Assembly: GCF_011397635.1 (NCBI RefSeq) | Contig: NC_064759.1 | Location: 15,582,428 to 15,646,427 of the forward strand | Source of the DNA: Epinephelus fuscoguttatus | Lineage: Eukaryota > Chordata > Actinopteri > Perciformes > Serranidae | DNA length: 64,000 nucleotides | Direction of reading: 5' to 3' | Shown here: in pieces, positions 5,750 to 44,317 of the stretch | Position numbering within the stretch: the first letter of the stretch is position 1 | Layout: each line of letters begins with the position of its first letter | Notes under the pieces: generated by a model | The model's input: the letters and a program-made list of their open reading frames with translations, nothing else | What the model was told of the DNA's origin: nothing | The model's database searches: none | Made by a program: the position numbers and the translations under genes

Positions 5750-8700
5750 ATGGCAGAAGGTGGGTGCAGAGGTAGTATGATGTCTTCTCAGTAAATTATT
5801 TGTTCTCTGTTTGTAATCAGTCACTGATCAGATTCTCTAGAAACCCAGAATCTGACAATAAGGGCCCCTGACACACCAAACCAATGGTCAGCGTTAGGTT
5901 AATGTCAAAAATCTGTTGCCTACCTGCTGGTGTGGAGAGTTATTTCCTCTTTCCTCTTTTTGGCCGAAACACAGGCGACATGAGGCAAGCAACAGTTGCC
6001 CTTTGTCACCGCTAGTTCTTTGATGTCAGCTTGCTGTGTCTGAGCCTTAAAACCTGTTTCCTAATTTACTGTATGGTTAAAACAGGCCTAATTCGTCTAA
6101 ATAGAGTTCAGGATCAAGAGCAATGAATAAACGTGATGAGTGTTGCATTATTGAATTTAAATTAATAGTGTGACTTTGGGGAGGTATGCCTTTTTGCATG
6201 TCTTTCTTAAGTTAAATGAGAACATCACTACGACTGGTGTTTGTACATTAAGAATAAAAGAACTAGAGTCAGGAGACTTTTAGCTTCGCTTAGCATAAAG
6301 ACTGGAAGCAAAGAGAAATGCTTACCCTGGCTCTGCCCAAACTCCAGAAAAATCTGCCGACCAGCATCTCTAAAGCTCTAGTTAACACATTAGTTCCTTT
6401 TTAAATGGTACAAAAAACACTTTGGTCAGGCTCGCTTTTTCTCTTGGGTCCAGTCTTTTGTCAAACTAAGCTAAACTAAATATCTCCTAGCTTTGTATTT
6501 AGTGTACAAAAATGAGACTGGTATCAATCTTCTCATGTCACTCTTGGCAGGAAAGACAGAAAGTGTATTTCCCAAATTATCATCATAAAACTTCAGATGT
6601 GACAGAATGGCATTTGAAGAAAACGTCATATCATAATTAAAAGATGTATTAATTAATTGTCTGTATTTGATGAATCTCATTTACAAGTCAAGTCATTTAC
6701 ACTTTGATTATTGAAATTAGAAGTTTTATAGTATCTTACAATAAAACCTCTTCAGATGAAATTTTCAGAAATTCCAGTCGGTCATTGTGGAGTCATTTTT
6801 TCCTCTTTCCTCAGACAAGCTCTTTGTGGATAAACATCGAGGCGAACTGATACAGAGAGCGAACAACACCGCAGCCATTCTAGCTGAGCTTGTCAGTGAA
6901 AATGTCATCCAACAAGACAGTTATGAAAAAATCAGGGCTCTGCCTACCCCTCAGCAGATCATGAGGGAGCTCTTCAGTGGGCCCTTGGCATCCAGTGGAG
7001 TTCAAGGAAAAGAGACCTTCTACAAAATCCTGAATAAACATGAGTCTTATCTAATCGATGACCTCAAGAGAACTGAGTATGAGAACGCCATGAAAGTGAG
7101 TAAATCCTTAGTTATTTAAATTATTTATTAAATTACGCATTGAGTGAGTACAGTTGAGATTCAAAAAATCATTATCATTACTTTGTGTGCAGAAACTGAT
7201 ACCACATTCACAATCCTAAAACGTAGACATTGATGAGATGTGAACAGACAAATCTGTGACGATCCCTGCTGACAAATTGCACTTTCACCCCCTGAACATC
7301 TCCTATGAATTTACCAGGTGGAAACCATATCATCTGTCATAGAGCTGCTTTTGGAAACGCTGTCTGGTTTGAGTGACTGGGAGCTTGAGGAGTTCAAGAA
7401 TTTCCTCCTGAGTCAAACTTGCATCTACGAACACTTCTCAAATATCCAGTGGAGGCTGTTGAGGACCGCAGACATGCAGGACACAGTGTTTTCTATGGTG
7501 CAGAATAATGGCCAACAGTCTGTGGAGACGACCAAGGAGGTTTTAGAGAAGATGAAGAGGACTGATCTGGTGCAGAGGTTGTCAGACAGCAGCTCAGGAT
7601 CCAAAAGTAAGACAGTAAAACTAAAAAAGATGTTAAAAATATTCCTTAACATGTGTCTTTTAAGTTTATAAGCTGTTTTCTTCTCTTCACATTATTAATA
7701 ATAAGATTTATGATGTAGACATTTAAAGATACACATCATCAGGTGAACAAGATATATTTTATGACTAATGTAGAGCATGGAAAAATATTTCGGGTAAGGA
7801 GGCAAAATGTCTGATAAATTATCTGTTGACGTTGGAGTGTAATTCTGTGCTGACGTCTATGTGTTTTTCCCTACAGCAGTACAGTCTGATGTCAGTCACA
7901 TGTTTTTATTTCCTTTCTTTCTCCTCAGAAAAACACTCTGTGGATGAACACCTGTCTGCACTGATCCACAAAGTAAGCAATATCATATCGGTCTGACCAT
8001 GCAGAGTACAGCTTTTATTAGATAGGATGCAGGTTTAAATTCATATCAATATTAATTATGATCAATTAAACCAAACTCGTGATTTAAATAAAATGTTTCT
8101 ATTGTTCCTATTATCAAGTCATTGTATTTTAAACAGTTTTTCAAAGACTTAAACCAAATGCTCAACAAGAAAATGATAAAATATCTTCATTGTGCCGCCA
8201 CCTGTTAGTGCCATGACATCATCGACATCTGTTGTTCAGATCGGGTGGCTCATTTCAGCTTATAGCGGCACAATGAAAGAGTTACGGGTCAAGGTCAAGA
8301 TTACTTTATTTGTCTCCCTTGGGAGAAAATCATCTTGGATAAAGGGACATTGCTGCGTCAAATCAGACATTACAGTACAGAACATTAAATAGATACAATA
8401 GAACAACACAGTAAAGATATTAAATATTAAATAAGACACATGCAAAACGTTAGCTTGTGGTAAAGTACTGTGCAAATTAGACACTGCAAATTAGAATTAC
8501 AGGGCATACTATTGCTACCTGAATATTCAGACACATATTCACTTGCATACTTACATGCTCACACATTCTCATTCATACTTAAATACTGTACATGCTACAG
8601 TACATAGTACTCCAAACATGCCACCACAGATAAGATCAACTGCTTACCATAGACCTTAGGGGCCTCCTATGTTTCTGTCTGTCCTCCATTTGATCATTAA

Positions 8701-11700
8701 TAAGTTTGACTGAGAGAGGGACGAATGAGTGTTTGTTTAAACAGAGGGATCCTGTTCCTCCTCCCTGAGTTTATTAGAATTCAAAGCATGGGAAGTGTCT
8801 GATAAAATCATAGTGGCCTGCCTAATGGCGACAGCTAAGAAAGATTCTAGGAGTCAAGGCGCAAGTGGATTCTCGCACAAACACTCCCCACCCATGTATG
8901 CCAGCTCAGCTCATTATCAATATGACCCCCTAAATATTTCTGTGAACTGACTATTTGATGTCCTGACCATGTATGACGGCAGAACTTTGTCTACAATTGA
9001 TCTAGGATCCAGCAGCATTTCTACAGGCTCTCCAGTGATTTCGGCCTGGAAATGAAATTAAAAGAACATTAATCATGTTACAGATATTAAAGAGTGGAAG
9101 AAAAAAGGAATCATCTTCTGCACTAACAATCAGATAATTACCAAATGTATCAGTACCTTAGGTAATCTTGTAGAAAAACACATCTTCCAACATTCAAATG
9201 TAAAAGTATAAAAGTCTAATAATAATGATATCGATCAGGAGCCAAAATATAAATCTATTAAACATTTACTTGTAATTTTCCAGGTGGCAACTATGAGGGC
9301 TATTAAAGAGCGGCTTTTGGAGACACTCAGTGATTTGAGTGACAGGGAGTTAGAGAAGTTCAAGTGGTTGCTGCAGTTCACGTTCTTCCAGAGGAGTCTT
9401 GAACTCATCTCATGGAGAGAAGTGCAGTGGACTTACAATGTAAATGAACTGGTGGATGTGATGGTGGAGAAGTTCGGTCAGCAGTCTGTGGAGGTGACCG
9501 TGGAGGTTTTGATGGACATGAACAGGAGTGATCTGATGCGGAAGCTGTCAGAGACCATCTCAGGACACAAAGGTAAGATTGAAGAAGACAACTGCAACTT
9601 TGTACGTAATGATAATACACATGCTTACAAAATTAGCAGCTTGTCGTTTCAAACAATACAGTAATAACATGTAGGCCTGCCATGACCCCAAGAACAACCA
9701 AAGAGTTGAAACAACACCTCTCAAACACAGTCTCATGTAAAAACTAAATATCAACTTCACAGAGTTATTTATCTGTTTTTTTTAAAAATACAGGAATATG
9801 CTTTTTACCCAGTGAAATTAACTGACAAACTAAATTTACTTGTGCTCACAAAATAAAAACTAAATGTGAGATTAGACAGAAGTCCTTCTTACACTGCCAG
9901 ATTTTCGGCGAATGTTGGGCGGTTTTGCCGGCAAGCTGCGAGCATTTAGACACACAGAGCTGGATTGGCGAGTTGATCCGAGGTACCCAATTTTCCGCCT
10001 CGTAGGGTAGACATATTGGCAGAACCCTTTAAGTTTAAACAGACCGAGGCGACCTTCCGCCACGAGAGGGGCTTTTGAAGACTTGTGGGAGGAGCTGTTG
10101 ATGACACCGCATGTGCGAACCACTGGCGGTGGATAAACAGGAAACAGTTGATAGCAGGAATTAGCCAGCAGCTAGTAGCAAAAGGGAAACACAAACCTGA
10201 CAGACACTGTAAAGATGAGCAACCGGGGAGACAAGGAATTGCGCGCTGTCCTTGCCCTTGCAAACGAAGAGGCCATTAACCGTCAGATGACAGGAACGAT
10301 GAAGAACGCGCCGACTTACGAGAGAATCGCCGAAGGACTGACCAGCCGCGGCTTCCCTCCCATGTCACTGTTCACATCACACGCTGAGCTACACGTTTTG
10401 TTACTTGCTCACTCCCCCCACTGCCCCGAAAAAAAGCACATTTTGTATAAACACAAGTAGGTAGGCGTCATTTTGCCGCACTCCCCGATTTTGTTTTTAT
10501 ACTATCAATGCTGAAAAAAGACTAATTGGGCTTTCCTGCAAATTTGCACAATTCCTATCTAAAAAGTACTTTTGGTTCTTTTTTATAAGTTTGTGTGTTT
10601 TCAAAAGTTTCTCAACACCTTTTCTTTAAAAAATATTCTTTGTAGGGTTGGGCGATACAACAACTATTTACGATATATTGATATCTTTTTTTTTTGTATA
10701 ATTATTTTATTTTCATTTCTCAAACAACAAAAATTTCACGGTTGATACACGATACACGATTATAATAAAAACATCCAAAACGAGAAAACAAACAAACGAA
10801 AGAACAAACAAAAACCCAGACACAAACAAAACCAAACAAAACAATTACACAAAAAAAAATAGAAACACAACACAAATTTATAACAGACCCAGTGAAAACA
10901 AACAAGCTCAACCTCCTAATTTCATGTCCTTTATCATTACATTAATCTCTATCATCCAGCGAATTAACTTTACTCAACAGTTTAATCGATGTCCCTTGTT
11001 TTAAGCCATGCTATTTATTTATCCTACTGCATAAATTAAATATAACATCAGCACAGATAATTCATACTCAAACCGTAGGAGGAACCAGAATACTATATTA
11101 GTTAAACCCATTTGTTAAACATACAACTTTATGAACTCAACACTTGTGATACTTTTCCCCATGTGTTTTCAAATTGAGTCACTTTATTTTTTTCAGTGGC
11201 TATAAGCTTTTCCATGTTCAAATAAAAAGACAGTTCATTTTTCCAGTGACTAAGAGAGGGAGGATATGTAAATTTCCAATGTTGTAGAATAAGTTTCTTT
11301 AATATCAAAGATGAGAAAAGAATGATCCATTTTTGTGGAAAATGCATATTATTATTTGAAACATCTTGCAAAATACAAAACGATGGATGGAAAAGAAGCT
11401 TCGTACCAAGAGCCTCAGATAACCAATTCTCCACTTCCAACCAAATCCTCTGAACTTTATAACATTCCCAGAACGCATGAAACAGAGAGTCTGGGGTTCC
11501 ACACTTTAAGCAGCCATTTGAAACCTTTCCATCATACTTATACATTTTATCCCTGGTACAATTTATTCTATACATTATTTTATACTGAATCAAACGTAAA
11601 TTTTCATTGACTGTAATATCTCTTGTTATATTCCAACATTGTACCCACTTGGAATTTATATCCTCCCTTCCTAAGTCCTGGTTCCATAAACAAGTTCTAG

Positions 11701-14700
11701 ATTTCAACAAATTATCAACCAATATCGATATCTTTTCAAGCAAAGTATAAATTTAGGCAACACCATTTTATCGATAAAGGGTCAGGTTGCCTTATATGTT
11801 ACAAACCAGTGTGCATCTCTCCTCTTTCACAATCTCTTCACAGCTCTGCCCCACTCACTCACAAGTTCTCCAGCAATACTTTGTAGAGCTGTAACCTGAC
11901 GTGCACCTCCCATAGACTTATAAAATAAATAAACCAGACAAGGGTGTTCTGTAGTTACAGAAAAATACACTCGATACTGCTGAATCACAGTGGGTTTATC
12001 TAAAATTCAATGAAATAGAAAACTATCATCACAAATTACAAAGGCATTAAACAATTGAAATTTCTGTATTTGGAATGAAACTAATGTTCATAAGCTGAAA
12101 TTTTACAGGTCTTGATCAAATTAAAAAAACATACAAGCATGCATTACTTAATGAATGAATTATTAAAGTTGATTTTTTTTTTGTTTTTTTGTTCATTGTA
12201 CCAGTTCTAATATAAGTCCTTGATATTAGAATTGTAATAGTTAGACATTGTCTGATTATAAAGCCTGATGTTAAATCAATCATTCCTTCATATTTCCTTT
12301 GTCCTCAGAGAAACACTGTATGGATGAACATTGCCCTGCATTGGTCCAGACGGTGAGTAATGTCACTTCTGTCCAACATTGTATGATCAGTTGGACAAAT
12401 ACTATGAATTGTATCATTACTTTATGTGATATAACTGATGAACTCTTACCTCATCCACATCTCTAAAGAAAAATCTGTAATCATCCCTGCTGACAAATTG
12501 CACTTTTACCCCATGAACATTTCCTTTGAATTTACCAGGTGGAGATGATGACATCTGTCATAGAGCTGCTTTTGGAAACACTGGCTAGTTTGAGTGACAC
12601 GAAGCTCAGGAAGTTCAGGGACATCCTCCTGAGTCAGACTGACTTCGACAGATGCGTTTCATACATCCCATTGATACTGCTGGAGATAGAAGACAGGCAG
12701 GTCACAGTGTTTTTAATGGTGCAGACCTATGGCCAACAGTCTGTGGAGACGACCAAAGAGGTTTTAGAGAAGATGAAGAGGACTGATCTGGTGCAGAGGT
12801 TGTCAGACAGCAGCAGAGGACCCAAAAGTAAGAAAATGAAGAACAAAACTGGTCTTTAACACGTGTCTTTAGTTTATAAACCATGTTTTCTTCTCCTTCA
12901 ATTATAAATATTAAGATTTATGATGTAGAGAAAATAAGAATCACTCTCTTGATAGAAAATATATTTCATGGCTAATATGAAATATGAAAATATTTAGGCA
13001 GAGGGGGCAAAAATGACTGTTGAGCTGGTTTCAGTGTAATATTACCAATTTAATTTTTTTTTACAAAGCATAATGGCCTGATAACAATGTTTATTGGTAG
13101 ATGTTTGATCAGTCACTCACAACTTTTGCTACTTTTCTCCTCAGGTGAACACCAATCTGCACTGATCCAGAAAGTGAGTAATGTCACACCTGTCTGACTT
13201 TATACAAAACAGCGTTCATTAAATAGATGCAGGTTAAAAATCATCATCGTCTTGAACATTTTCTATGAACTTTGTTTATTGATATTTTTTTTTACATATA
13301 AATTTATAATGGTGTTAAAGCACTTGTGAGTGACGGTTCGATGTAATAGTTGTGCAGAACAAAAGAAAACCAACCAACAAACAAACAAAAACTTAGAACC
13401 CACACAGAATAAAAACAAACAAACAAAACTTTCAGTTTGGTCATACTGGTCATTGGTCATATTACACTTGTTACATTAAACAATAAACTTGCTCAAAATG
13501 TCAGTGTAAAAGTAAAGATATGGGTACAAAAACAGACAAGATTCAGGAGGTTATTATTCAGGGATAAGTGGAAAAGTCATTTTCTTTCTGAGAATCTCTT
13601 TTCTCCACAAAGTGTTGGAAGGCAGTGTTGGTCATTTCCATCTCATTAGTATTGGATGTCTAGCCAATAATGTTACAAAAGCTACAAGATCTGCTCCAAG
13701 CTTAGGCAAAGGCAAGTGAGAGATGCTGAACAGGGCTGTAATGGCATTAGGAGAGAGCAGGACTTTTCCAAAGTTTCCTTGGTGACATCACAGAGTGACA
13801 GATCCCTTTATCAGTAGTGCCCTATCAGGTTTGTAAACTGGTCTCTCACTTAAGTGTGAGAATGAGGCATCCTGTGGAGATAAGGGCCAAATGGCTTTCC
13901 TTTGTTTGAAGAACAGTGAACATGAGGTATCTTACCATTTCAGATGGCAAGACCCAGAGGAAAAAGCCTTTACATGTCCAGTTTAGATTTGAACAAATGA
14001 CAAATCATCTACCGTCTAGTGAATCCCAACAACAGTGAAGAGAACTTTATCCAAAAGAAACATCAATTTATTGTACTTTTAACATTTTTCAGAAAAGCAT
14101 TAAACAAAATATAGAACATAAAAAATATAAATATCCTTTTGAGCCACTGTGACTCATTTAATTTTTTGTGAAAAGCCTGTAAATTAAAGGAAAAACAATT
14201 AACAAGTTCATCAGAATTAAAAGGAAGAAGTCACCAACAACAGCAGTCACCAAATGATCAATATGCTATGTTATCTGCCAGTAACACTCACATCTCCATA
14301 AACACTGATGTGGTGCAAAGAAACACATTTGTAATTGTCCCAGTGGATTAAATATATGTCCTATAAATGTATTGATTATTTCAGGTAGCAACAATGGCAG
14401 CTGTTAAACAGCTGCTTTTGGAAACTCTGAATGATTTGAGTGACGAGGAGCTCAAGAAATTTAAGTGGTCTCTGGAGTGGATTGTCTCCCAGAAGGACCT
14501 CCCAGATGTCTCACCGGAGTTTGGCCTCACAAACGACAGAGCAGAAATAGTGGATGTGATGTTGCAGACCCACAGCCAACAGTCTGTGCCATTAACCAGG
14601 GAGGTTGTAAAGAAAATGAACAGGATTGATCTGATGCAGAGGTTGTCAAAGCCCAGCTCAGAACTCGAAGGTAAGGTAAAAACTGTCATATTACATACAT

Positions 14701-17700
14701 TTTATGATTCATAATTTGGAAATGGTAAATCTGCTTGTGTACACACTCTATCATCACAAATGTGAAGAAATAAAACAAAGCAGGGATCAATAAATCATCA
14801 GTTGAATCATAACTAAATCAATAACAGTCACACAAAGTGTTATAATTTTAATGAGTTAAGTAATTGTTGCAGGACTTTTGTGTTGGATTGCTTTCGACTG
14901 TGAAAGTGTTTATGATATTGTGAATTTGTTATATTTACTTTTGAGTTACCTGAGTCTTTTTAAAGTCGATCATACTTTCTCTGTTAGGTTAGAGTTTAAT
15001 CCTCTGAGTCATTGTAAGTGTCTTTTCTCTGCAGAGGCACACTCAGTGGATGAACATGTACCTGCAGTGTTGAAGAAAGTGAGTCTAACTTTACACATCA
15101 CAGCTTTCATTCAGTAGATGCAGGTTGAAAACCATCCTCATCCTGAACATCATGAATGATGATACAAATCAAACCGAAGGTTTTAAACTTGATGGTTCTC
15201 ACAGTCGAAGGGTAACTTCTGTGTTTTCCAACCTGGACCCTAATTTTCCTTTAAGTGACTAATGGGAACAACAATTTTTGAAAGTGGTTCGGTATTGAGC
15301 GGACCGCTGCAGATAACAGTGGCAAAAGCAACTGTCGATTTACATCCACTGTAAGTGCTTGTTTTTGCCACTGACAGGCTCAGATTGTTAATTACAAGTG
15401 TCTGACAATAGGCACAAAATAAGTCTCTCAAAAACCCTCTTGGTTGAAATAAACCTTGAATTCATAAAGTTAGATGCAAAATATCAACCAGCAACCTCTG
15501 GGGCTGAGAATTGAAGCCAATGTTACAGCAGAAATAAACATGTTTACAGCCTGACACAAAAAAAAACAGCTTTGGTCTCTGTAGCTAATTTCAACATTCA
15601 CAACAATTGTATGTGGGATGGATTTTTTAGAACTCACTTGTTTACTTTTTTTTTTTTTTTAGGCTTAAAGTTGCACATTTTTAACGATGGGGTGGCTTGA
15701 GTGACAGGCTGGGTGCGATGCGTTGCTGTCGTCTGTAATTTAGATCCATCCCTCACTTTTCCACAGCTCCACCCTCTCATCCAAATGTGGTCACTTCTGA
15801 CTCCAAAAAGCCAATTTGGCAACACCTGAAATGTCAAACTCAAGGCTTCAAAACAGCAGTCTACAAACCAGTGGGTGATGAAGCAACAATACATATCTAA
15901 ATATCTAATATCTATTATTTGCTAAGTTATCTTATTCAGATTTTTAACTATGAAAATAAAATACTTACTTTCAAGTAGAGTAAAAAGTTTCTTTGAGTTA
16001 CAGAAACAATGTTATGTTAGATCAGGTGGTAGTAATCAGTTTACAGGTATTAAGGGGTAAAAGTGTGAAGGGAATCGTCTTTTGCTTTGATGCTGCTGAA
16101 GTAATGAATAGACATAAAAAAATGTGTTGGTAAAGAAAAAGAGGGAAACGTAATCAACAGAATATTTATTACCAACTGTATCTTTGTCTTGAGTGATCAT
16201 ACAGAGAAAGTCTTAAAAGATCCAGGTCTAAAATACTGACACTGATGAAATGCAAAGAAGTAGATGTTTTAGAATGCCACTTCAGAATTGACACATTTGC
16301 TTAATGCATCCTTTAAATCTTTCAGGCAGCTGTGAAACTGATTCTTTTGGAAACACTGAAAGATTTGAGTAAGAAGGAAATCGAGAAATTCAAGTGGTTG
16401 CTGCGGTTTACGCAGTTCCAGAAGGGTCTTCCACACATCCCATTGAGCGGATTACAGTGGGCAGACAGTACAGACACACTGGTGGATCTGATGGTCCAGA
16501 CCTGTGGCCAGCAGTCTGTGGAGGTGACCACGGAGGTTTTCATGGACATGGACCGGACTGATCTAGTAGAGAGGTTGTCAATCATCAGCTCAAGAATCAA
16601 AGGTCAGAGAAAAAAGACAAAAACTGCCACATTACACAGTCATATGTTTCTCATAAATGTTTAATAAATACATTTTAGATTTCATAGTGAAGCTGCATTC
16701 AAACTTTATTTAATCAATAAGAAATCTGAAAAATTAGAAAGCAGACAGCGACACAACCACACCACATTTATTACTTGGACTGCAGAAATCACTGAGTTGA
16801 ATTCAACCTCTTTGATTTTCATGATGTCATGACTGAGTAGATTTTACTGTCAGTTTTGCAGCAGTGAATTCTTTGTATTTTATTTTCTTTAAAAGCAACT
16901 GAACTTGAATCAACACTTCTGACACTGAATATCTTAATTTGACAGCTTTGTAGATTATATATTTTGATACATTCCAGACATTATAATCTTTATAAACGTA
17001 GTGTTTGTTGCAGGACTTTTGTATTGTAGTCCTTTAGATTTAATGGGTGTTAATGATATGGTGTCCAACCTCTCTCATTCTGTTTTTATGATGTCAGATC
17101 CAAGTCCATTCTAGTGATATTTTGCGATTAATCCTCCATTAGGTTTTTAATTCAAAAGCAACTAAATCTGACTTAAGTTGTTTATAGTCTGATTCTGAAT
17201 CTGTGAAGAGTCATTATTTTTTTCCTTCTCTTCAGAGAAACAGCCATCTGAACTGCTCCAGAAAGTGAGTAATATCACATCAGACACGTTTTACAGAACA
17301 CAGCTTTCTTTGAATTTTTACAGATTGAAAATGATCCTCATCTTAACAGTAAAGAGGTGGAAAACATTTGTAAACCAGAAACATCACATCTGCTGTAAAA
17401 GCAATGAGAACATGTGATCAGGTGGATCGTTCCTGCTTTTGGTTGCACAGAGAGAGAGAGTTAGAGACAGTCATTAAAGCACAGTTACTGATAACCAGTT
17501 TATAGCATTAAATGGATCACACTGGCCCTCATTTATCAATCTAATGTACAAACCAGCACAGAACCAAACACAGAAATCATCTAAAATAGGGTCTTGCTGA
17601 TTCAAATGATGAAGCGTCATTTAAATATAATACATACTGGTTTAGTTTACGGCATGGAGAGACATAATACAGCTAAAAAAAGAGTTTTAGATAAATTAGA

Positions 17701-20700
17701 GCTGGGCACTAGTGGTGTTCGGCCTTTCGTCAGTAACACAGAGCCAGGCAACTGCGAGCTATGATAGAGAGACTGCGTCCATTTGGCAGCGTTACATTTT
17801 TAAGTTATTACTGTGGCTGCAAATACTTAATATGCCCTTCATAATATGATCTAATAAAAATGATCCAACTCAGCTTGATTTTCTGTGCGTGAGTTGAGAC
17901 GTGATGTGAGATTTGATCGTAGCCTCCGCTCACGTCCACATTGATCAATGCAAACTTTTGCGTGGAAATGACTGAATGCCCAGGTTTCTGTCATACGTTT
18001 ATTTTGTAAATGAGGGCCACTGTATTGTGATGAAGCTACAGAAATGAACACATGGAAGGTCTTTGTTTTTATAGTCACCTTAAAATTCAGTCTCACTAAT
18101 TTATCATTTTGCCTTATGTGGTTAATATTAGTTGTTACAAATAAATTAATGTATTGTTACTACAGTGGAGCTATGACATAAATGTTCTCCGACTACTTTC
18201 TATCCACCAGGAAGTCACCATGACACCACTAATGGAGAAACTTTTGGAAACACTGGAAGATCTAAGTGAGTGGGAGCTCAGGTACTTCAAGCATGTCCTA
18301 CAGCACAGCAGAATGAAGAAAAGCCTCCCAAAATTCTCCACACAGAGATTGGAGACAGCAAGCAGAATTGGCATGTTGAAGCTGATAGTGGATTTCGACA
18401 GCCAGCTGTCTGTGGAGGTGACAAGGGAGGTTTTAATGAAGATGAACAGGAGAGATCTCACAGAGAGGTTGTCAGAAACCAGCTCAGGACTCAAAGGTAA
18501 GATGAAGAAGACAAAAACTGCCACATTGCACAATCATATGTCTCATAAATGTTTACTTGATTTTTTTACTTAAAGCCTCAGTGTGTTAAAATGGTGAGTA
18601 ACAGTGACATCAGCGGTCAAATTCTAGATTGCAGCGCTCACTCGCGCTTACTTGCTCACCCCTCCCGTCGGGTAAGTGACGGTGGCCTCGTAGGACAAAA
18701 AGCCTTGCGCTGACAGCAGAGATGGCATCATCCACGAGTTTTTCAGGAGTATCTAGCAAATACACGCTACACGTCTAATAGATTTCCATATTTATAGTAA
18801 CAAGGTAAATCTGCTTGGTTTCAAACTGTAATGTGAGATATGAAAAAATGAGGGAGCAGACAGCGATGCAATAACACCACATCAGCCGTAACTACCTCCC
18901 AGGGAAACTGATGCGTGATGCTTATACTAATGCCTAATGCAGCAACTGTCCACAGGCAGGACAAGTTAGGTTGGTGTTTGAGCTTAGAAATTCATCTGTG
19001 CAGAATGCCAGGGAGGTGAAGAAGTGGCCAACATGAAGGAAGAGAAGCACAGCAACAAGGGAGCTGGACAACTTGGGAGACAGTCACCAACAGGGCTATA
19101 ACTTGAGACAATGGGCTCTAGTTTCCCGGCGCAGCGCAGGGTGGCAAACCCCGCGCAGAGCTAGTTTCGAGCAACACAACCCGAGGCGTGCTCAGTTTGG
19201 TAGTTTGGCAGACCAAGGTGCGCTGAGATGGGTGTGGCGGCGCAGCAGGGGGAGGTGTCAACAGATGCAGCTTGGCGCAGTGACAGTTTCGTGCCAAAAG
19301 GCTTCGCCGAAGGTGTGCTAAAAGCTTGCCAACTGAAACCACGTCTACTGTCAGCGAAGGCGGAGCGCAGCCGGTGTAAGCCGAAGTTTGGCTGACCAGC
19401 GGACAGTGCGCACACGTCATCAAAACCTCACAGGCAGGTTTCCAGAATGTCAGGCACATTAACAATGCAATAAATACCCAAAAAAACACTATTCAATGCA
19501 ACTATCTGCAATCAGCACATAAATGTATCTTTATATCGTCTGTCTCGTCACATCTGATGTCAGATCAAAGGGGATTGGCACCGTTTGGCACGTTTGGCAC
19601 GCGTAATGGAAACCCAACACACAGCTGCAAACTAATGAGTTCACATCCCTCTCAGCCAACCACAAACAGCATCAGATAGGGAGTATATATTCAGCATCTG
19701 TCATCTTAGAAAAGTCAAAAGAAAAGAAACAGAGTGAGACTGCGAGAGAGAAAGAGAGAGCGTGCGCACGCGCGCACACGCGTGCACGAGAGAAACACAA
19801 CATTGATTTACAATTGTGCTGACCTCCTCCCAGGCTACCTTTGCATCATCAGCCCGTGGAGGTCTGCTAGCAGTTCTGTATATTTGGACACTGCGAGCAG
19901 ACCTCCCGGACCAAAACATCAGTTTCCTCCTGGAAGAAGAAGAGTTTGGCCGTCTGACGCTGCTGCTCTCTTCTGCCATGGCGAATTGAGTCTCATTACG
20001 CCTTCGCGCGGCGCATTTAAGGGCGAGGAGAGGGGCTCATTTGATTGGTGTGATGTGTGTAAAACCCACTCCACGCCTTCTCTCCTCCCTCTTTCCGACT
20101 TGCGCAGGTAGGAGGGACGGAGGTGAGATAGAGGGGTAGCTGCGCCAGGGCGCACGGTGTTCCAGACTTACAAAATCCGCCTGGCCACACCCAGTTTGCG
20201 AAGCGCAGGTGCACTGCGCCTCCGCCGCGCCCGGTCTGCGAAACTAGAGCCCAATATGTTTAGGATACAGGCAAGATTTAGCTCACTCATCAGGTCTACG
20301 TACAGTAGCTTCCCAAGTCCCAGAAATCTGAACGGCCATCTTTGCGACACCCAAAAACCAAGCTTGAGACATATTCTCTCTAGCTGCAAAACAGCACTGA
20401 CCCAGGGCCAGTGCAGCTGATGTCCTGCAAAAGTTGGAAGAGGGCAGATAAGCACGCAGACTAGAATTACATAAGGCCAGCCCCTCAACATCATGATGAC
20501 AAATCTATTTTCATCAGTCAATGAGGTGGAACACAGAATGCTACACAGAAAGCAGATGAGGCCATCAGTCTGTCACTTACTGCACTGACAGTTTGCTCCA
20601 ACATGGACACACACCACAAAAAAAAAACAAAAAACAGTCAGGACCAACACATCATTTTCTATCCCCACTGCAAATAAAAAGAAGGAAGCTGGAGCATCTT

Positions 20701-23700
20701 GATGGCCAAATGGTTACAGCATGCAATGTAACCACAACATCCACAGTTTGATTCCATCTGTTGGACCCCCCTCTCTCACTGTCCCAGACTTCCAGTCTGC
20801 CTGCACACTGTCATCTGTCCAATAAAGGCAAAAAATGCAAAGAAAAAATATCTAAATAATAATTAAAGAAAGCCATCGTTCCCAAATACGGTTGGAAGTT
20901 GGGGATAAATCTGATGACTGACCTGCTGCATGTATACACAGCTTAACAGTAACCTGGTTACTACAGTGCACGTAAACACACTGAATGACTGCAACATCAA
21001 CACCCATTACTGTACATTACAATCCTAACCTACTGTTACATATTGCTCTCATGTTTGAGCAGCACTATCTAGCATATGATGCAAAACAAATGCAAAGTTA
21101 TGCGGTTTTATTTATCAACTTAACATGTAGTTTAATCTTCTGTGTCTTCACAAGGGCCTTCAAGAAGCTTGGAGCTTGAGGACTGTGGAAACATTATGGT
21201 AATTCCTTACATTCATTCATTCATTTGTTTAGTTTAATTTAGTTTATTAGGATCCCCATTAGCTATTCTTCAGGTGAGTTTATTTGTCATTCAGTCATTT
21301 ATTTTATCAGTTAATGTGATGTTACTAAGACACATCTTCACTTCTTTGTAAAAATGACTGTCCTCTGCAGCAGGACTCCAGTGACTGGACTGAAGTTGAA
21401 CCTGAAGTGAACAGTACAGATGCAGACAAGGCTTCAACTTACAGGTAAATATAAGATCCTAAGTGTTCCATCACAGCTAAGCGTCATTGTTTGGGGCTGA
21501 AAAATGAAGCCCATGCTGAAGCAATGTCAGGAACCAGACTGATGACGATGAGCCTCTGGGGGCGAATTATTATTATTATTCGGTAGGGGTAGGAATCACC
21601 AGAGCATCCACGATATGATAGTATCAGGATACTTAAGTCACGATACAATATTATTGCGATAATAAATATGTTGCCATATGCTGAGTGTTGTGATAAAATA
21701 TATTGTGATTTATAAATTATGTCCCCAAAAACAAAGTTTGTCAACATCCGTTTTATCTAATAAGAAAAAGTTTTCAGTCTGTTCATCTCACTTCAGCCAC
21801 TTTTTTGCAGAAGCGAAATTTATCTAGTAATAATGATTATATATTCTTGTAGACTACCAAAAGCTCATTTGTAATATTAATGATTTACATAATGAAAAAA
21901 TATCAATACTTGGCACTGTGTGACGATACAACATTGCCACACAAAAATATTGTGATACTGTGCTGAATAGATTTTTACCCCACTCTTATTATCTGGTATA
22001 GTAAGCTGATATCCAAATCAAGACTTCTTCCTCTGTGCACCCATCATTTCAGCTAATCTCTATATCTGCAGATGAATGCAGATAATTTGATAACTCTGGT
22101 TTGTTTGTTCCTCATCCTGGTGATTGACACATCTAGGTGACACCATCGAATGTGCGTTACTATGTTTTGTATGTTGTTATATTCACGTCCCCTACAGTGG
22201 TAGAGCAACACCTGCACACCGTCTTGTGCATAACTCTCTCTAGTGCTGTTGTAGCTGACCGGTACACTGGAAACCAGCAGATGGGTCCTCTAGCCCCAGT
22301 GTATTAATTTGTGTCCATCATAGTGACTTATTCGCACACCAATCCATCTGTTGTGCTAATTTCAGCTTTTGTTCATTTTGTTTCATATGATAGACCCACA
22401 TACATTGGTCACTGTCTCATTATAAATCTGACTTTGGTCAATACTACTTGGACTACAAACGGACTACAAACAGAAACCAGAACACTTCTGATACCAAAAT
22501 CTGTCCCATTGCCTGCAGATTCTGTATACATATATGCAGAATTTGTTTATAGAGATTAACACAGAGGTGCCAAAAACTGCAGGTCCTCAAATGGCCACTT
22601 GAGACTGGCCCCAAAAGGGAGTTAATCCTCATAGATCCCCATGTTAAAATGCCCAACTTCTCAGCAGAAATAAATATGTTTACAGCCTGGTACAAAAATG
22701 TTCTGGTGAGCTTTTAAATAACACACGCCTGTAAAAAAAATTAAGGTTTATAATTACGCATGATCAAGGGCGTGGCTGCTGTGAGTGACAAGGCTGCCTG
22801 TAGATAGGATGAAACCTTCAAGCTTGGTTTCACAGAAGGGAATCTAAAATCTCTCTGTGCTGTTACTGGTTACTAATGCAATAAAACAATTATAGTGGCA
22901 ATAGATTTAACACCAAATAAACTGAAGGCTAATACGCTTGAGATTTACGTTTATTCCTTTGTGACCCTAATACAGTATTTTTGTGCATAGACACAAACTC
23001 GCTTGTTTTCTTTTCATTCACATTTAGCCTACAGTCTGAAGCAGGAAACTTTGAATGCAGTGTCTCCGGCTTGCGCTGGATCTGTAAGGAAAAGGTCAGC
23101 TTTAAGTACCAGTTTTGCTCTTGGGAAGGACCTATAGAAAGGATAGAAAGCATGCAGTACATGGCTGCAGGTCCCCTGATGGACATCACAGTCATTGCTG
23201 GGAAGTTAGATGTAGTGTACCTGCCACACTGGATCTGCATAGGTAAGTGGACATAAAGAAAATAATAAAATAAAAACTAACTTTTCTATTCATATCTTAT
23301 AGCATGTGTACAAAAATTGACACAATCCTTTTCTCTTCACTTACTGTGTGTGCTTTTATTTTGTGCAGATGACAACCCTACAATATTAGACAAGTTTGTA
23401 GTCCTACACATAGATGACTGTGGAGATGTCGTGGAAAAAGTGTCTGAGGTCACATCGTCCCATGTCAAGCTGTCTGAACCAGTTTTCTCTCCAAGAGCGG
23501 TCCTGATGAAAGCTGGCCTGTTGGTGAAAATACACTGTAATGTGTTGATATACAAGACCAACACAGCATTCCTCACTCTCCATGTTTATCTGATCCCATG
23601 TGATCCGGGTCTACAACAGGTTATTTCATAACTTATTGTCATCAATACCAATCATAATAAGACACAGAATGGCACAGTCAATAACTTGATTAATATACAA

Positions 23701-26599
23701 CACAGCATCAACCTTGTAGCAACTTTGTGTTAAGAGTTTGGTGTGTTTTTACAGGAAATGGACAAGAGGGAGTTATCCCGTGGATACAAAATTATCCAAA
23801 AGCCACATCCAGAGAGGTCCCTGAAAATGCAAGATCGTTTCATCCTAACAGCAGATTTGGACAGTGCAGACATTTGTCCTGAAGTATGTTTTAAACCATT
23901 TAAGAATAACTGCTCTATGTTTTGTGATTTGAAATGAAAAATCATTACAAAATGATCCAAATTTACTTAAATGTTTTGATTCTTGTCTCATGAGAAATTT
24001 ACATTGAAACAGTCTAGTTAAAGACATTGAAATGTCCTAAAACATTTTTATTTATTACTCATAAACAAACTGTGACACTACTCATAAGTTGTGTTTTCCA
24101 GAAAGCAATGACGTCTTAAAAGCTTTTTATATACAAAGATTGTGCTTTTTGGCCGCTACAAAGTTCCTTCTTTGTGTCGCCTTAGCATTTTTACACAGAA
24201 CCTAATGACGGGGGCATCATGCTGCTCGAGTGTGGACATTTTAAATAGTATGCAGGCATTGCGGAAGCAAAAGAGGCACAACAAGCATGACATGAAGTGA
24301 TTGGTAGGGTACTGAAAATACAGACAGTACTTACTGACCCTCATGCCAACAAGAAGTCCAGTGTAGTTTTTTAATCCACAAAACTCGTTTGGGGTATCAG
24401 AGGATAACAGCTAGCCAGAATAACAGCTACACTTGAAGTGCACGGAACCCACATTTTGAAAATGTAATAAAACTCCGCTAATGCATTTCAAAAACATCAG
24501 AACGACTCGTCCGTCATAATCCAAGTGCCCTGGCGCATGAGTTCACATGTAAACACAACAGCCTGCAGGGCAGGCTAACTGACCACGGTGAGAAATGATG
24601 CTACAAAAGTGGAGTAAATTACGTCTTTTCAAGTTAGTTTTGCATGCTGCAGCTTCAGGGCACTTGGATTACGACGGATGAGCCGTTCTGACGTTTTTGA
24701 AATGCATTAGCGGAGTTGCACTTCAAGTGTAGCTGTTATTCCGGCTAGCTGTTATCCTCCAATACCCCAAACGAGTCTTGTGGATTAAAAAACTACACTG
24801 GACTTCTTGTCGGCATAAGGGTCAGTAAGTACTGTCTGTATTTTCATTCTAAAGTGGCCATATCCTTTAAGTACTTTAAAAAACAAATAAAAAATTCATT
24901 TTTGAAAAATCAATAGTGCTTTAGTTCAGGCGGAGATGGGCTTCCTGGCTTGCATTTGAGGTGTTCCTTGTGTGCTCTCCTCCTACACTAGATTGAATTA
25001 ATGTTGTGTTTGTTGTAATGAAGGTAAAAAAGGCAAATGCAGTGAAGTAAAAAAAAAAGAAGATTATTGGCTCAAAAATATCACCATCACCATATCTTTT
25101 TCTTTTTTTCTTTTTTTACAGACATTAAAGCTCAGACATAAAAACATAAATTTCTTTGAAGTGTTCATTGAAAATCCAGACAAAGTTTTCAAGCTCAAGC
25201 TTGAACAAGTAAATGATCATCAACCAGTGTGGACCTGTACAGTTCGAAAAGGTCAGTTTTAATAATACCACAAGAACTTAAATACACTGTCTGAGTACCA
25301 CATGGATTTTATTGAACATCATTATTGAAGCAGACATCTATTGATAAAAGGCAGTAAATCAGCTACGTATTCATATTTCCTTATCTCTGGATTATCTTTA
25401 CAGATGACTACCAAAGCAGCACTGGTCCTTTACAAGGTAAAATATTTTAAATGATTTGTGTTAAGAAGAATTGCACTTTAGATTTCACTCTGTTTTGTCT
25501 GTCCGTCTGTCTGCTGCGCTGTGATGTGTTCACAGTAAACACAAAGTAAATTTTTTTGCATTGCAAATTTTTGCATTGCATCAAAGTCAGGAGTGTTTAT
25601 TTAAAATACAATACAGTTTACCAGTCTGAATATTTATTTTCTTGTCTCTGTTCTGTATTCAATTGAATATAGGTCACAAAAGATTCACAAATAATTGCAT
25701 TCTGTTTTCATTACATTACATTTTACATTTTAATCAAGGTTGTATTTTTCACATTGTCCACGGCAGCGCATTACTGCTTCACTCCTTCCACTGTCTTTCC
25801 AATAACTAACTTTAATTACTCAAAGCATTTTGCTAATAAGCAACTCAACAAAATCGCTAACACAAGTCCAAATGCATATTCTCAGAGCTTAACCGTGTAG
25901 TGCTACGGCTTTGCTCACTAATCTCTGAGCCCTCTCCTTTTTATGTTCTGTCTCTGTACAGTACTGACACTGAGTCACAGACAGCGACAATGTGTTTATC
26001 CTCTATTTCTGATACTTGGTAATGTCAGAAGAATCTGTCAGGATAGGCTTGTGTAGGCCTGTGTGTCATCTTCAACCTGCTCAAATAGTGCAATCTGATT
26101 ACTGACCTGCTGCATGTCTACATGGATTTACAGTAACCTGGTTACTTCAAACCAATAAAATTTTGAATGTTAGGCTGTCCGACAGCGACAAACCATTTAA
26201 GCTCGACAGGTGTTTGCAGTATTCAAAAGGTTTGAGTGTCACTTTGCAATAAATTAACCCTCTCTTTCTTTTAAATCGTAAAGGAACTGATGTCACCAGA
26301 TATTACCTAAACAGATTTTTCTGCCCTCAGGGGAGCACTTTGTGGATAAACACCAGTGTGCTCTGATTGAGAGAGTGAGCAATATAAAACCAATCTTGGA
26401 TAATCTCCTGAGTGAAAAGGTAATCCAACAAGAAGAGTATGATACAATCAGTGCCATCCCAACCACTCAGGAGAAGATGAGGAAACTCTATAGCGGTGCC
26501 CTGAAAGCTGCAGGACATGACGGCAAAGACGTCTTCTACAAAATCCTTGAGGAGAACGAGACATATCTTGTTGCTGATCTCAAGAGGAAGGAGTCATAA
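5750..26599 (+). CDS. CARD-(PYD)6-FIIND-CARD inflammasome-type protein
   Basis: Hand-spliced model, 1113 residues. Coding exons: 5750-5759, 6815-7095, 7318-7606, 7929-7972, 9284-9572, 12309-12352, 12539-12827, 13145-13173, 14385-14670, 15035-15078, 16326-16602, 17236-17264, 18211-18496, 21155-21198, 21371-21444, 23028-23242, 23369-23619, 23755-23883, 25122-25251, 25404-25436, 26331-26599. Domains: CARD 4-95, PYDs at about 98-193, 209-304, 320-415, 426-520, 536-627 and 638-732, short linkers between, FIIND about 748-1013, CARD 1025-1113. All 20 junctions are GT-AG and keep phase. The FIIND has the F|S site of NLRP1/CARD8 (F883-S884) with His857 27 residues before Ser. By family knowledge, a freed UPA-CARD tail would nucleate caspase-1 activation in the cytosol. 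No NACHT or LRR frame exists anywhere in the span. The start is the first ATG after a splice acceptor and gives M-A-E-D joined directly to the CARD. The 5' UTR exons are unplaced. Domain calls are strong; a single transcript containing all exons is inference. Confidence 0.82.
5862..6052. mobile_element. MITE, TIR family GGGCCCTGACACACC, copy 1
   Basis: Begins with GGGCCCCTGACACACCAA and ends with TGTGTCTGAGCCTTAAA, an imperfect inverted pair. The same ends and internal text (AGTTCTTTGATGT, GACACAGGC-like block) recur at 50527-50988. It lies in intron 1 of the PYD gene. It looks like a non-autonomous DNA transposon; superfamily not assigned. Confidence 0.55.
6815..7095 (+). other. coding exon: N-terminal CARD
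   Basis: Exon 2 of the PYD gene, phase 1 in and phase 0 out. It encodes a complete CARD (starts KLFVDKHRGELIQR, ends near NKHESYLIDDLKRTE) of the ASC/NLRP1 type. It is clearly paralogous to the C-terminal CARD: both carry FVDKH, VIQQ and FYKIL at the same relative positions. A CARD in front of PYDs is the reverse of ASC's PYD-CARD order. Confidence 0.88.
7318..7606 (+). other. coding exon: PYD 1
   Basis: 289-nt exon, phase 0 to 1. The pyrin-domain signature is visible as LLETLSGLSDWELEEFKNFL, then GQQSVETTKEVL and RTDLVQRLSD. Its flanking intron text, including the GACAAATTGCACTTT block 49 nt before the exon and about 160 nt after it, closely matches that of PYD 3. Confidence 0.87.
7929..7972 (+). 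other. coding mini-exon: relic CARD start, linker 1
   Basis: A 44-nt exon, phase 1 to 0, encoding KKHSVDEHLSALIHK (first Lys split). It aligns with the first 44 nt of the CARD exons (KLFVDKHRGELIQR and EHFVDKHQCALIER). The donor GTAAGCAATAT sits where the C-terminal CARD encodes Val-Ser-Asn-Ile. Confidence 0.75.
8292..8400 (-). mobile_element. possible LINE 3' end (antisense)
   Basis: The text AAGATTACTTTATTTGTCTC then CCTTGGGAG reads in reverse like the CTCCCAAGG..AATAAAGT 3' ends of fish LINEs. Short and diverged; clade not assigned. Confidence 0.35.
9284..9572 (+). other. coding exon: PYD 2
   Basis: 289-nt exon, phase 0 to 1. Shows LLETLSDLSDRELEKFKWLL, GQQSVEVTVEVLMDMNRSDL and a terminal RKLSETISG. 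Closest by eye to PYD 5 and PYD 6 in the second half. Confidence 0.87.
9890..10480 (+). mobile_element. Harbinger-like transposon remnant with Myb/SANT-like start
   Basis: A GC-rich island in the intron after PYD 2. From 10215 it encodes MSNRGDKELRAVLALANEEA followed by TYERIAEGLTSRGF. That resembles the Myb/SANT-like DNA-binding helix found in Harbinger-type accessory proteins. The frame then runs into unrelated sequence, so only a fragment remains. Ends are approximate and no terminal repeats were fixed. Confidence 0.45.
10690..11721 (-). mobile_element. 5'-truncated L1-type LINE
   Basis: The minus-strand open frame 11743-11129 encodes the C-terminal part of an L1/Tx1-like ORF2, with a zinc-binding motif of the form CLKCGTPDSLFHAFWEC. 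The element ends in a poly(A) (read as T run at 10686-10695). It is bracketed by 15-bp direct repeats: ATATTGATATCTTTT at 10675-10689 and ATATCGATATCTTTT at 11722-11736 (one mismatch). It inserted into an older GGGTTGGGCGATAC-type repeat inside the intron between PYD 2 and linker 2. Confidence 0.85.
12309..12352 (+). other. coding mini-exon: relic CARD start, linker 2
   Basis: A 44-nt exon, phase 1 to 0, encoding EKHCMDEHCPALVQT. The intron starts GTGAGTAATGTCACTTCTGT, which read in frame would continue as Val-Ser-Asn-Val-Thr-Ser-Val, like the CARD helix it replaced. Confidence 0.75.
12539..12827 (+). other. coding exon: PYD 3
   Basis: 289-nt exon, phase 0 to 1. Shows LLETLASLSDTKLRKFRDIL, GQQSVETTKEVLEKMKRTDL and VQRLSDSS. 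Nearly identical in its second half to PYD 1, with matching flanking introns; the two are a recent duplicate pair. Confidence 0.87.
13145..13173 (+). other. coding mini-exon: relic CARD start, linker 3
   Basis: 29-nt version of the linker (SEHQSALIQK), 15 nt shorter than the 44-nt ones but in the same phase. The donor GTGAGTAATGTCACACCTGT again continues the Val-Ser-Asn-Val reading. Confidence 0.7.
14385..14670 (+). other. coding exon: PYD 4
   Basis: 286-nt exon, phase 0 to 1. Shows LLETLNDLSDEELKKFKWSL, SQQSVPLTREVV and RIDLMQRLSKPSS. The most acidic first helix of the six, closest to a textbook PYD. Confidence 0.87.
15035..15078 (+). other. coding mini-exon: relic CARD start, linker 4
   Basis: 44-nt exon encoding EAHSVDEHVPAVLKK; donor GTGAGTCTAAC. 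Confidence 0.72.
15470..15896 (-). repeat. dispersed fish repeat, copy 1
   Basis: In reverse orientation it contains CACCCACTGGTTTGTAGACT, GTTTTGAAGCC, CAGAAGTGACCACATTTGGA and GGGTGGAGCTGTGGA. The same ordered blocks recur at 60425-60815 and more diverged at 22570-22860. This looks like an abundant non-autonomous element of fish genomes. Confidence 0.6.
16326..16602 (+). other. coding exon: PYD 5
   Basis: 277-nt exon, phase 0 to 1. Shows LLETLKDLSKKEIEKFKWLL, GQQSVEVTTEVFMDMDRTDL and VERLSIISS. The donor is the weaker GTCAGAG. The start lacks the Val-x-Thr-Met lead of several other PYDs, which shortens it by a few codons. Confidence 0.85.
17236..17264 (+). other. coding mini-exon: relic CARD start, linker 5
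   Basis: 29-nt exon encoding EKQPSELLQK; donor GTGAGTAATATCACATCAG. Confidence 0.68.
17524..18018. mobile_element. Harbinger-like MITE with 3-bp TSD
   Basis: Inverted ends GGCCCTCATTTATCAA and TTTGTAAATGAGGGCC are flanked by direct ACT triplets (17521-17523, 18019-18021). A 3-bp target duplication fits PIF/Harbinger. It carries no coding frame and lies in the intron before PYD 6. Confidence 0.72.
18211..18496 (+). other. coding exon: PYD 6
   Basis: 286-nt exon, phase 0 to 1. Shows LLETLEDLSEWELRYFKHVL, SQLSVEVTREVLMKMNRRDL and TERLSETSSG. The intron text after it (AAGACAAAAACTGCCACATT) is shared with PYD 5, so these two modules are also a recent pair. Confidence 0.86.
19113..20252. mobile_element. 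CpG-rich Harbinger-like element, 1.14 kb
   Basis: Ends are GGGCTCTAGTTTC and its inverse GAAACTAGAGCCC, flanked by AAT triplets on both sides. The arms are rich in GCGCAG/CTGCGC text that also pairs in inverted orientation near the ends. Unusually GC-rich for its AT-rich intron. Several open frames exist but none shows a transposase motif, so it is probably non-autonomous. It sits between PYD 6 and the last mini-exon. Confidence 0.7.
20690..20860 (+). mobile_element. tRNA-derived SINE, copy 1
   Basis: A-box-like TGGCCAAATGGTTACAGC and B-box-like GTTTGATTCC are followed by CCCCTCTCTCACTGTC and ACTGTCATCTGTCCAATAAA, then GGCAAAAAATGC. The same body occurs in reverse at 32595-32798 and 41450-41637. 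Confidence 0.7.
21155..21198 (+). other. coding mini-exon before the FIIND
   Basis: 44 nt, phase 1 to 0, encoding GPSRSLELEDCGNIM. It has the same length and phase as the CARD-relic linkers, but its protein is the LELxDCGxI lead that precedes FIIND domains in fish proteins I recall. The acceptor is CTTCACAAG and the donor GTAATTC. Confidence 0.65.
21590..21990. repeat. CGATA-rich dispersed repeat
   Basis: The text runs from GGGGTAGGAATCACC to GATTTTTACCCCAC (imperfect inverted ends). Between them are CACGATACAATATT and GTGACGATACAAC blocks, a style common in fish non-autonomous DNA repeats. Limits are approximate. Confidence 0.45.
22570..22860 (-). repeat. dispersed fish repeat, diverged copy 2
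   Basis: Shares the AGCAGAAATAAATATGTTTA then CAGCCTG block and the GTGAGTGACAAGGCTG block with the copy at 15470-15896. Strongly diverged and partial. Confidence 0.4.
24313..24846. mobile_element. foldback element with about 190-bp inverted arms
   Basis: The left arm (about 24313-24534) and right arm (about 24655-24846) are reverse complements with few mismatches. Examples are GAAAATACAGACAGTACTTA at the left edge, its inverse at the right edge, and AACAGCTACACTTGAAGTGC in both. The left arm has about 27 extra nt after GAAGTGC. The RNA would form a long hairpin inside the intron that splits the UPA region. Confidence 0.85.
26331..26599 (+). other. coding exon: C-terminal CARD and stop
   Basis: Starts EHFVDKHQCALIERVSN and ends ENETYLVADLKRKES then TAA. 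A full-length CARD of the ASC/NLRP1 type; by family it would be the caspase-1-recruiting end. Its internal GTGAGCAAT at 26375 (codons Val-Ser-Asn) lies 44 nt from the exon start and matches a splice donor, the position used by the mini-exons. I see no AATAAA between the stop and the hAT element; the first one, at 26960-26965, lies inside that element. Confidence 0.9.
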
Positions 26600-43767: not shown

Positions 43768-43799
43768 CATTTAGAGTAGTACATGGTGAGCTTAATAAA

Positions 43800-44317
43800 C
43801 TCGAACCTTTGCAGCAACTGGATATTGTATATTCTCTTTTGATGCATCAGCTGAGTTGAAAATGGGTTTTCTGATGGCTTATTTTCATTTTACACTTTGG
43901 ATCCATGTTCCCAGGGAAATAATGTGCCTTGCAAAAAAGTAGGCTCATCTCATAGTATTTAGTCTCCACTGTGTATTTCACTCTTCTAAGTCTATATGAA
44001 AGAAAACCACTCTTCACTTTTTCAGATGTTTTAATGTAACTGTATTGATTGATAATCCAAAACCCAGTAATTGGTACAATTCATAAAATATAAAAACATG
44101 CTTCTACATGAAAAGGAAATAGAAATCTTTTTATATTCCACATGGTTTCCAAACACCATCATATAGGTATACACATACAGTGCATAACAGGACACGTCTG
44201 TAGTTCACGCAGCAGCACTGGTGAAATGGACATCATATCCATTCCTAGTCCATTAAAAAAAGTCAATGTACTCTGCTGTCTCTGTCAGGTCAACACCAAT
44301 AGTTTATTGACTGTCTG
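43800..44317. other. convergent 3' ends of H1-like gene and emg1
   Basis: Between the H1-like AATAAA (43794-43799) and the emg1 stop (44318). TTTATT at 44303-44308 is an AATAAA on the minus strand only 10 nt past the emg1 stop, which would make an unusually short 3' UTR. No other feature was seen. Confidence 0.45.

Follow-up and report, generated by a model that had tools for sequence, protein, structure and literature searches.

A CARD-(PYD)6-FIIND-CARD gene model of Epinephelus fuscoguttatus, one size class of a large fish family and a candidate NLRP1/CARD8-like tripwire sensor

FIIND sensors are known mainly via NLRP1 and CARD8. A locus of Epinephelus fuscoguttatus (Serranidae, Percomorphaceae) raises the questions of whether a single gene places six pyrin domains (PYDs) between an N-terminal CARD and an NLRP1-type FIIND-CARD, as the original prediction claimed, and of what such an array could do there. 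The sequence under study was a 64,000-nt stretch of NC_064759.1 (the window), in which the gene was rebuilt on the + strand, 5750..26599 (Table 1). Its 21 coding exons join in frame at every junction, with one stop, and encode 1113 aa. All 20 introns start with GT and end with AG; 19 of the 20 donors score at least 7 of 9 against the consensus, a level that 4.9% of the window's + strand GT sites attain, and the remaining one scores 6, while the acceptors comprise 18 CAG, one TAG and one AAG. Pfam on the spliced model gives the predicted order CARD, six PYDs, FIIND (ZU5-UPA), CARD, with PYRIN in six stretches, CARD in two, FIIND and UPA-FIIND each above the curated cut-off; the six PYD exons and both CARD exons also pass individually. 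Neither NACHT nor LRR is among the Pfam families listed for the product (E up to 0.1), as had been claimed. A Phage_TAC_3 match that just passes (22.7 bits, cut-off 22) was taken as chance.

The model is identical over 1113 residues to an NCBI prediction for E. fuscoguttatus, "uncharacterized protein LOC125893087 isoform X2". Isoform X1 has four extra residues beside the exon 1 junction, which appear to fit an exon 1 donor 12 nt downstream. A six-frame scan of the whole window with family-built HMMs recovered the six PYD exons, both CARD exons and the FIIND of the model, without a further significant FIIND or PYD locus; the weaker remainder was led by linker exons (E 0.02-0.2) and then stood at E above 1. 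The CARD-(PYD)6-FIIND-CARD architecture is thus confirmed on the gene model.

Table 1. Coding exons of the rebuilt gene, in window positions.
Feature	Position	Strand	Remarks
First coding exon, MAE + 1 nt	5750..5759	+	Kozak-like ACCATGG
CARD1 exon, phase 1 in, 0 out	6815..7095	+	Pfam CARD 3.9e-13
PYD1 exon, phase 0 in, 1 out	7318..7606	+	Pfam PYRIN 2.3e-13
Linker exon L1, 44 nt, probable truncated CARD exon (KKHSVDEHLSALIHK)	7929..7972	+	
PYD2 exon	9284..9572	+	Pfam PYRIN 2e-18
Linker exon L2, 44 nt	12309..12352	+	
PYD3 exon, nearest duplicate of PYD1	12539..12827	+	Pfam PYRIN 1.3e-10
Linker exon L3, 29 nt	13145..13173	+	
PYD4 exon	14385..14670	+	Pfam PYRIN 6e-13
Linker exon L4, 44 nt	15035..15078	+	
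PYD5 exon	16326..16602	+	Pfam PYRIN 1.2e-18
Linker exon L5, 29 nt	17236..17264	+	
PYD6 exon, adjoins FIIND	18211..18496	+	Pfam PYRIN 4.3e-15
FIIND-side linker exon F1, 44 nt	21155..21198	+	
FIIND-side linker exon F2	21371..21444	+	
FIIND ZU5 exon F3	23028..23242	+	Pfam FIIND 4.2e-24
Exon F4: ZU5 end (His857, Glu866, predicted cleavage site Phe883/Ser884), UPA start	23369..23619	+	
UPA exon F5	23755..23883	+	
UPA exon F6	25122..25251	+	
Short exon F7, between UPA and CARD	25404..25436	+	
C-terminal CARD2 exon with stop codon, in-frame GTGAGC (Val-Ser) 44 nt from start	26331..26599	+	Pfam CARD 8.6e-18

In the whole product, Pfam matches are strong for both halves of the FIIND (FIIND 2.8e-37, UPA-FIIND 3.7e-26), and the FIIND-CARD part aligns end to end with two PDB chains of NLRP1 and one of CARD8 (E 8.9e-42, 8.4e-35 and 4e-25). 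By numbers counted off these alignments, H1186 and F1212|S1213 of NLRP1, which we take to be catalytic sites, face H857 and F883|S884 of the window protein, and H252, H270, E279 and F296|S297 of CARD8 are all matched, facing H839, H857, E866 and F883|S884. In an alignment of 197 rows (196 distinct FIINDs from the first 240 relatives, plus the window reference stretch), the autoproteolysis residues are kept at His857 in 193, Glu866 in 197, Phe883 in 195 and Ser884 in 192 rows. The H..F|S set is intact in 93 of 99 rows followed by a CARD, in 63/63 followed by a PYD and in 31/32 followed by no such domain, with two rows unclassed. Such conservation would not be expected had the family lost self-cleavage. 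The CARD8 residues aligned here matter for self-cleavage according to mutagenesis reported in an excerpt of PMC3210808. By its sequence, the product has the features tested for the FIIND-containing inflammasome sensor class (NLRP1/CARD8), i.e., a ZU5-UPA, the autoproteolysis residues (His, Glu, F|S) and a death-fold effector after the UPA (CARD, 8.6e-18).

The layout differs from those of NLRP1, CARD8 and ASC, as originally claimed. NLRP1 (human, rodent, zebrafish) likewise has a FIIND (ZU5-UPA) and then a C-terminal CARD, with the same cleavage residues, and human NLRP1 is also a PYD carrier, at its N terminus. However, it has one PYD in a PYD-NACHT-LRR layout, where the window protein has an N-terminal CARD and six PYDs without NACHT or LRR; "NLRP1 homolog", the name of some relatives, would therefore not fit. 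CARD8 is similarly a FIIND-CARD protein without NACHT or LRR, but its N terminus is a 160-residue unstructured region (excerpt of PMC11760013), with no folded domain before the FIIND, whereas the window protein has about 730 residues there with seven death-fold domains, one CARD and six PYDs. ASC (PYCARD) also combines PYD and CARD in one protein, and the C-terminal CARD of the window protein matches ASC CARD structures; unlike the window protein, ASC has one PYD, a single CARD and no FIIND, and is an adaptor rather than a sensor. Zebrafish Gbp3 and Gbp4 have the domain order GBP-FIIND-CARD. They are fish CARD proteins with a GTPase module where the window protein has the PYD array, and the legend of a GBP figure names the FIIND and CARD domains (PMC4932187). 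In the parts drawn on here, the FIIND is assigned to NACHT-LRR proteins both in a review of fish NLRs and in a survey of metazoans (PMC12436146, PMC11508797), and PMC9978379 describes it for mammalian NLRP1. If the surveys as a whole limit the FIIND to NACHT-LRR proteins, much of the fish FIIND repertoire is left out.

The original prediction knew of no described protein with six PYDs before a FIIND. None appeared among the matches listed from open-licence literature, yet the architecture is not unique: three protein searches, from which the best 120 of 301, of 180 and of 182 relatives were listed, overlapped to give 255 distinct proteins of a large fish family. These counts are of proteins rather than genes, since many are isoforms of one gene, and some (P0005, P0075) resemble fused neighbors. 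By the family HMM, ZU5 is present in 255/255 of the relatives listed; at least one PYD precedes the last ZU5 in 202/255 and six or more in 133/255, with none in 53/255. Downstream of the last ZU5, the final death-fold domain is a CARD in 129 of these 255 and a PYD in 89, and the other 37 have none that was recognised. The largest array listed, 24 PYDs, is that of Oreochromis aureus (tilapia) LOC116330579 isoform X3, of 3075 residues. Pfam places its best PYRIN stretch after the UPA in P0033 and P0114, and finds nine PYRIN stretches in P0025, which the family HMM resolves as eight before the FIIND and one after. By sequence, the gene is one size class of this family, which is defined by PYDs before the FIIND, short CARD-helix-like linkers separating the PYDs, and a CARD or PYD after the UPA; the window protein has all of these, with a CARD after its UPA.

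By entry names, carriers among the relatives listed are mostly percomorph fish, a grouping looked up for two species and assumed here for the rest. The non-percomorph Astyanax mexicanus protein P0235 has two FIINDs and a CARD without PYDs. The closest proteins from two other Epinephelus species, LOC117265281 of E. lanceolatus and LOC126392119 of E. moara, match PYD1-PYD6 one to one at 92-99% identity, and both add a seventh PYD with a linker, so that array size within Epinephelus is 6 and 7 PYDs; isoform X18 of LOC126392119 is without the seventh. This PYD was not found in the window, where tblastn with the E. lanceolatus PYD7 gave the six known exons and one chance match (E 2.7). Of the top 40 non-Epinephelus matches of PYD6, 20 are the FIIND-adjacent PYD of relatives (isoforms included), and PYD1-PYD5 show no clear matching array position among relatives. 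Some array members may be DED-like: in P0064, a tilapia array with 14 PYDs by the family HMM and 13 by Pfam, residues 1108-1187 match Pfam DED above cut-off (42.4 bits vs 35.9). Of the six relatives put to Pfam for this, P0025 likewise has a DED match in its terminal domain, below cut-off, and the DED matches of the window protein's PYD exons are far below it.

The multi-PYD FIIND family is apparently undescribed. Among the matches listed from open-licence papers there was no description of such proteins; for tandem or multiple PYDs the only matches concern NLRP3 and AIM2, by title, and multiple PYD with teleost, UPA-PYD, FIIND-PYD, PYD-FIIND and multi-PYD gave no match. Names such as "NLRP1 homolog", "ASC" and "golgin-like" on many relatives disagree with the domains found; misleading names are borne by P0073, P0081, P0088, P0124 and P0141 (golgin, CENP-E, A-kinase anchor, ASC and sialyltransferase). 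P0222 (LOC125888799) of E. fuscoguttatus and P0210 of E. coioides are Caspase-FIIND-CARD proteins. P0222, another unusual FIIND fusion in this species, has two CARD stretches, Peptidase_C14, FIIND and UPA-FIIND by Pfam, in the order CARD-caspase-FIIND-UPA-CARD.

How arrays could grow is suggested by exon phases. PYD exons have phase 0 in and 1 out and linker exons phase 1 in and 0 out, and because these are complementary, gain, loss or skipping of a PYD-plus-linker pair leaves the frame intact. The PYD-PYD linkers are probably truncated CARD exons. L1, L2 and L4 are 44 nt, the exact distance from the start of the CARD2 exon to its GTGAGC, whereas L3 and L5, at 29 nt, fall 15 nt short of this. 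Against the CARD HMM, L1-L3 give weak matches over its first 22 positions (E 0.02 to 0.2), and L4 and L5 give none. Over 18 positions of intron past the donor, likeness to CARD coding sequence scores 11 for L1, L3 and L5, 8 for L2 and 6 for L4. The background of 123 GTRAG sites in the window has a mean of 5.5, and four reach 11, which must be L1, L3, L5 and CARD2 itself; three other donors of the gene (PYD3, PYD5, F7) reach 10. Whole CARDs stand between PYDs in nine of the 255 relatives listed, and a loose search of 434 distinct PYD-PYD linkers of the family found the CARD-like motif in full form in 68, in a shorter form in 132 and no match in 234. From these patterns the ancestral unit is inferred to have been a PYD exon plus a CARD exon. 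Caution for this linker origin comes from F1, also 44 nt with linker-type phases, which by eye is without visible CARD likeness. CARD1 encodes Ala-Asn at 6859-6864, where CARD2 has GTGAGC (Val-Ser, 26375-26380), a possible double-use donor. A general loss of the latent donor in N-terminal and internal CARDs was considered and rejected, as Val is kept in 45/47 distinct ones vs 87/89 C-terminal CARDs.

The output domain has also changed within the family. A tree was made of 126 FIINDs, of which 79 end in a CARD and 47 in a PYD, by a quick method with one support value; on it the fewest label changes are 20, or 12 if only starred branches are trusted, and shuffled end labels need 38 on average. 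The CARD/PYD label, CARD for the window gene, is by this tree clustered and not of one origin. Close FIINDs can have different ends, as with P0241 (CARD) vs P0117 (PYD) and P0041 (PYD) vs P0131 (CARD), the latter pair both from E. lanceolatus; some such differences may be gene-model errors. Isoforms assigned to one gene also end in either domain, in LOC117265274 (P0034, P0011) and LOC119005785 (P0019, P0044). These looked like alternative last exons, but in LOC119005785 each end belongs to a different FIIND on the tree, and for such pairs an origin from tandem cassettes or from merged gene models is equally likely. P0190 and P0246 have UPA, then PYD, then CARD in one predicted protein, which might reflect a transcript that carries both terminal exons, or an erroneous model.

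Between the window protein and 13 hand-chosen relatives of other genera, two of them isoforms of one gene, identity is 79-89% in ZU5, 46-79% in UPA and 46-70% in best-matching PYDs; ZU5 stands out as conserved, and UPA is about as variable as the PYDs. Mean column entropy is 1.76 for the 845 distinct array PYDs subsampled to 61 (range 1.66-1.88) vs 1.33 for the 61 distinct terminal PYDs after the FIIND, two sets whose relatedness differs even after subsampling. Within array PYDs, several core positions hardly vary, and the counterpart of ASC residues 38-50 is among the most variable stretches. The variability of N-terminal and internal CARDs does not exceed that of C-terminal ones (entropy 1.35 vs 1.39 at equal numbers), and given this the N-terminal CARD may have a signalling role. 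Divergence between Epinephelus species is about the same for PYDs as for the FIIND. Nei-Gojobori dN/dS for the 15 pairs of the six window PYD exons is 0.47-0.97, all below 1, which indicates weak constraint or diversification and is not proof of positive selection. A sign of selection in PYD1/PYD3, where the exon (81% identity) seemed to change faster than the intron (89% over 72 nt), was rejected because the stretch is too short and dS exceeds dN.

ASC places such as 10, 21 and 41 matter for ASC filaments. Both the K21 and R41 places are basic in 40/845 array PYDs vs 18/61 terminal PYDs (Fisher 3.9e-9, the sequences being related and not independent), a count to be taken with caution as there are gaps in the alignment around R41 and the K21 place is Glu in human pyrin. 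Among the six window PYDs, 0/6 have both basic contacts and 0/6 are basic at the R41 place. The D10 place is acidic in 93% of the 845 array PYDs, 23% of the 61 terminal PYDs and 6/6 window PYDs, and array PYDs are acidic at the D48 place in 59% and at the D51 place in 69%. Array PYDs may therefore retain one side of an ASC-type interface, and may bind ASC.

In NLRP1 and CARD8, the FIIND cuts itself, the N-terminal part holds the UPA-CARD, and N-terminal cleavage or degradation activates, according to passages of PMC5142783, PMC11760013 and PMC9978379. That the window protein behaves in this manner is, by homology, quite probable. The protein would cut itself at Phe883|Ser884, as predicted from the conserved residues, and its N-terminal part (CARD, six PYDs, ZU5) would stay bound to the UPA-CARD and keep it silent. 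The array would be bait for a pathogen factor directed at pyrin domains (a protease, ubiquitin ligase or PYD-mimicking effector), a role that we infer purely from its variability and its place in the protein. On attack the N-terminal part would be degraded, freeing the UPA-CARD, which would nucleate ASC or a caspase. Cleavage, functional degradation and output are all modelled on mammalian NLRP1 and CARD8. Taken whole, as an NLRP1/CARD8-like tripwire sensor of percomorph fish with a PYD array as bait, this is a reading toward which we lean slightly. Of the three roles guessed at in the original prediction, tripwire or decoy fits best, because the FIIND cleavage residues are near-fixed while array PYDs diversify, mostly without the ASC-type basic pair. 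In primate NLRP1, the cleaved linker evolves fast, as the array does here (PMC5142783, in part). Counted against the tripwire reading are the high paralogue dN/dS, which also fits relaxed constraint, the variable UPA, the equal PYD and FIIND divergence in Epinephelus, the kept acidic D10 place and the CARD variability.

As a high-valency seed, the array would bind ASC PYDs directly and start speck formation, and FIIND and CARD would form a further arm. The six domains are genuine PYDs with a conserved core, their PDB relatives by profile include the PYDs of ASC, AIM2 and NLRP3, and the acidic places, D10 above all, are largely kept; however, scarcity of the K21/R41 basic pair in arrays, and its absence from all six window PYDs, makes this originally proposed role less favored, and we regard it as unlikely. 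Acidic side kept and basic side lost is also what a filament cap could look like. Pyrin-only proteins inhibit inflammasomes, and the array could be a set of such decoys that sequester or cap ASC or PYD receptors, or could be a direct hold on the UPA-CARD. Regulation of inflammasomes by pyrin-only proteins is the subject of PMC7555848, by its title, and for NLRP1 of human and mouse the C-terminal part is described as bound and restrained by regions other than the FIIND (excerpt of PMC11760013). Inhibition alone would not account for near-fixed autoproteolysis residues, which leaves this reading improbable to much the same degree, if marginally less so.

It is also conceivable that the locus holds two or more transcription units, e.g., a CARD-PYD gene and a separate FIIND-CARD gene, or that gene prediction has joined them. 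FIIND-CARD proteins with no or few PYDs exist among relatives, the predicted P0005 and P0075 resemble fused tandem genes, an ATG lies near the start of several PYD exons (by eye), and the 2658-nt PYD6-F1 intron contains four AATAAA/ATTAAA hexamers, as a raw count. However, the frame is kept over 20/20 junctions with good splice sites, NCBI predicts the same model, entries of many other genera (NCBI and submitter names) join arrays to the FIIND, and the top matches of PYD6 in relatives tend to be FIIND-adjacent PYDs, all of which makes separate genes very unlikely.

Joining the tripwire reading with the family data, we tentatively propose, as a view somewhat more likely wrong than right, that percomorph fish evolved a separate tripwire class. 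Hypervariable arrays of 1 to 24 PYDs would bait effectors that attack pyrin domains, in front of a fixed self-cleaving FIIND, and the released effector would have switched repeatedly between CARD and PYD, feeding caspase-type CARDs or ASC-type PYDs. Arrays would grow and shrink by frame-neutral PYD-plus-linker pairs, with linkers derived from CARD exons whose Val-Ser (GTGAGC) turned splice donor. The family would be a natural experiment on FIIND bait evolution, with a nearly fixed cut site and arrays of up to 24 PYDs, and the PYD after the UPA in 89/255 relatives listed bears on whether UPA drives PYD as well as CARD signalling.

No RNA families or tRNAs were found in the window. The PYD2-L2 intron contains a 207 aa open frame on the - strand (11132-11752) with no Pfam match, which by eye resembles what is presumably the end of a LINE reverse transcriptase protein, and the F5-F6 intron a long inverted repeat (24370-24790, by eye), perhaps a small transposable element. 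An exon at ~59.4 kb is ING4-like by eye only, with no Pfam match. Downstream of the gene, 42496-54757 holds a linker-histone exon (PF00538) and exons that match the RsmB/F rRNA methyltransferase family below cut-off and by eye resemble NOP2.
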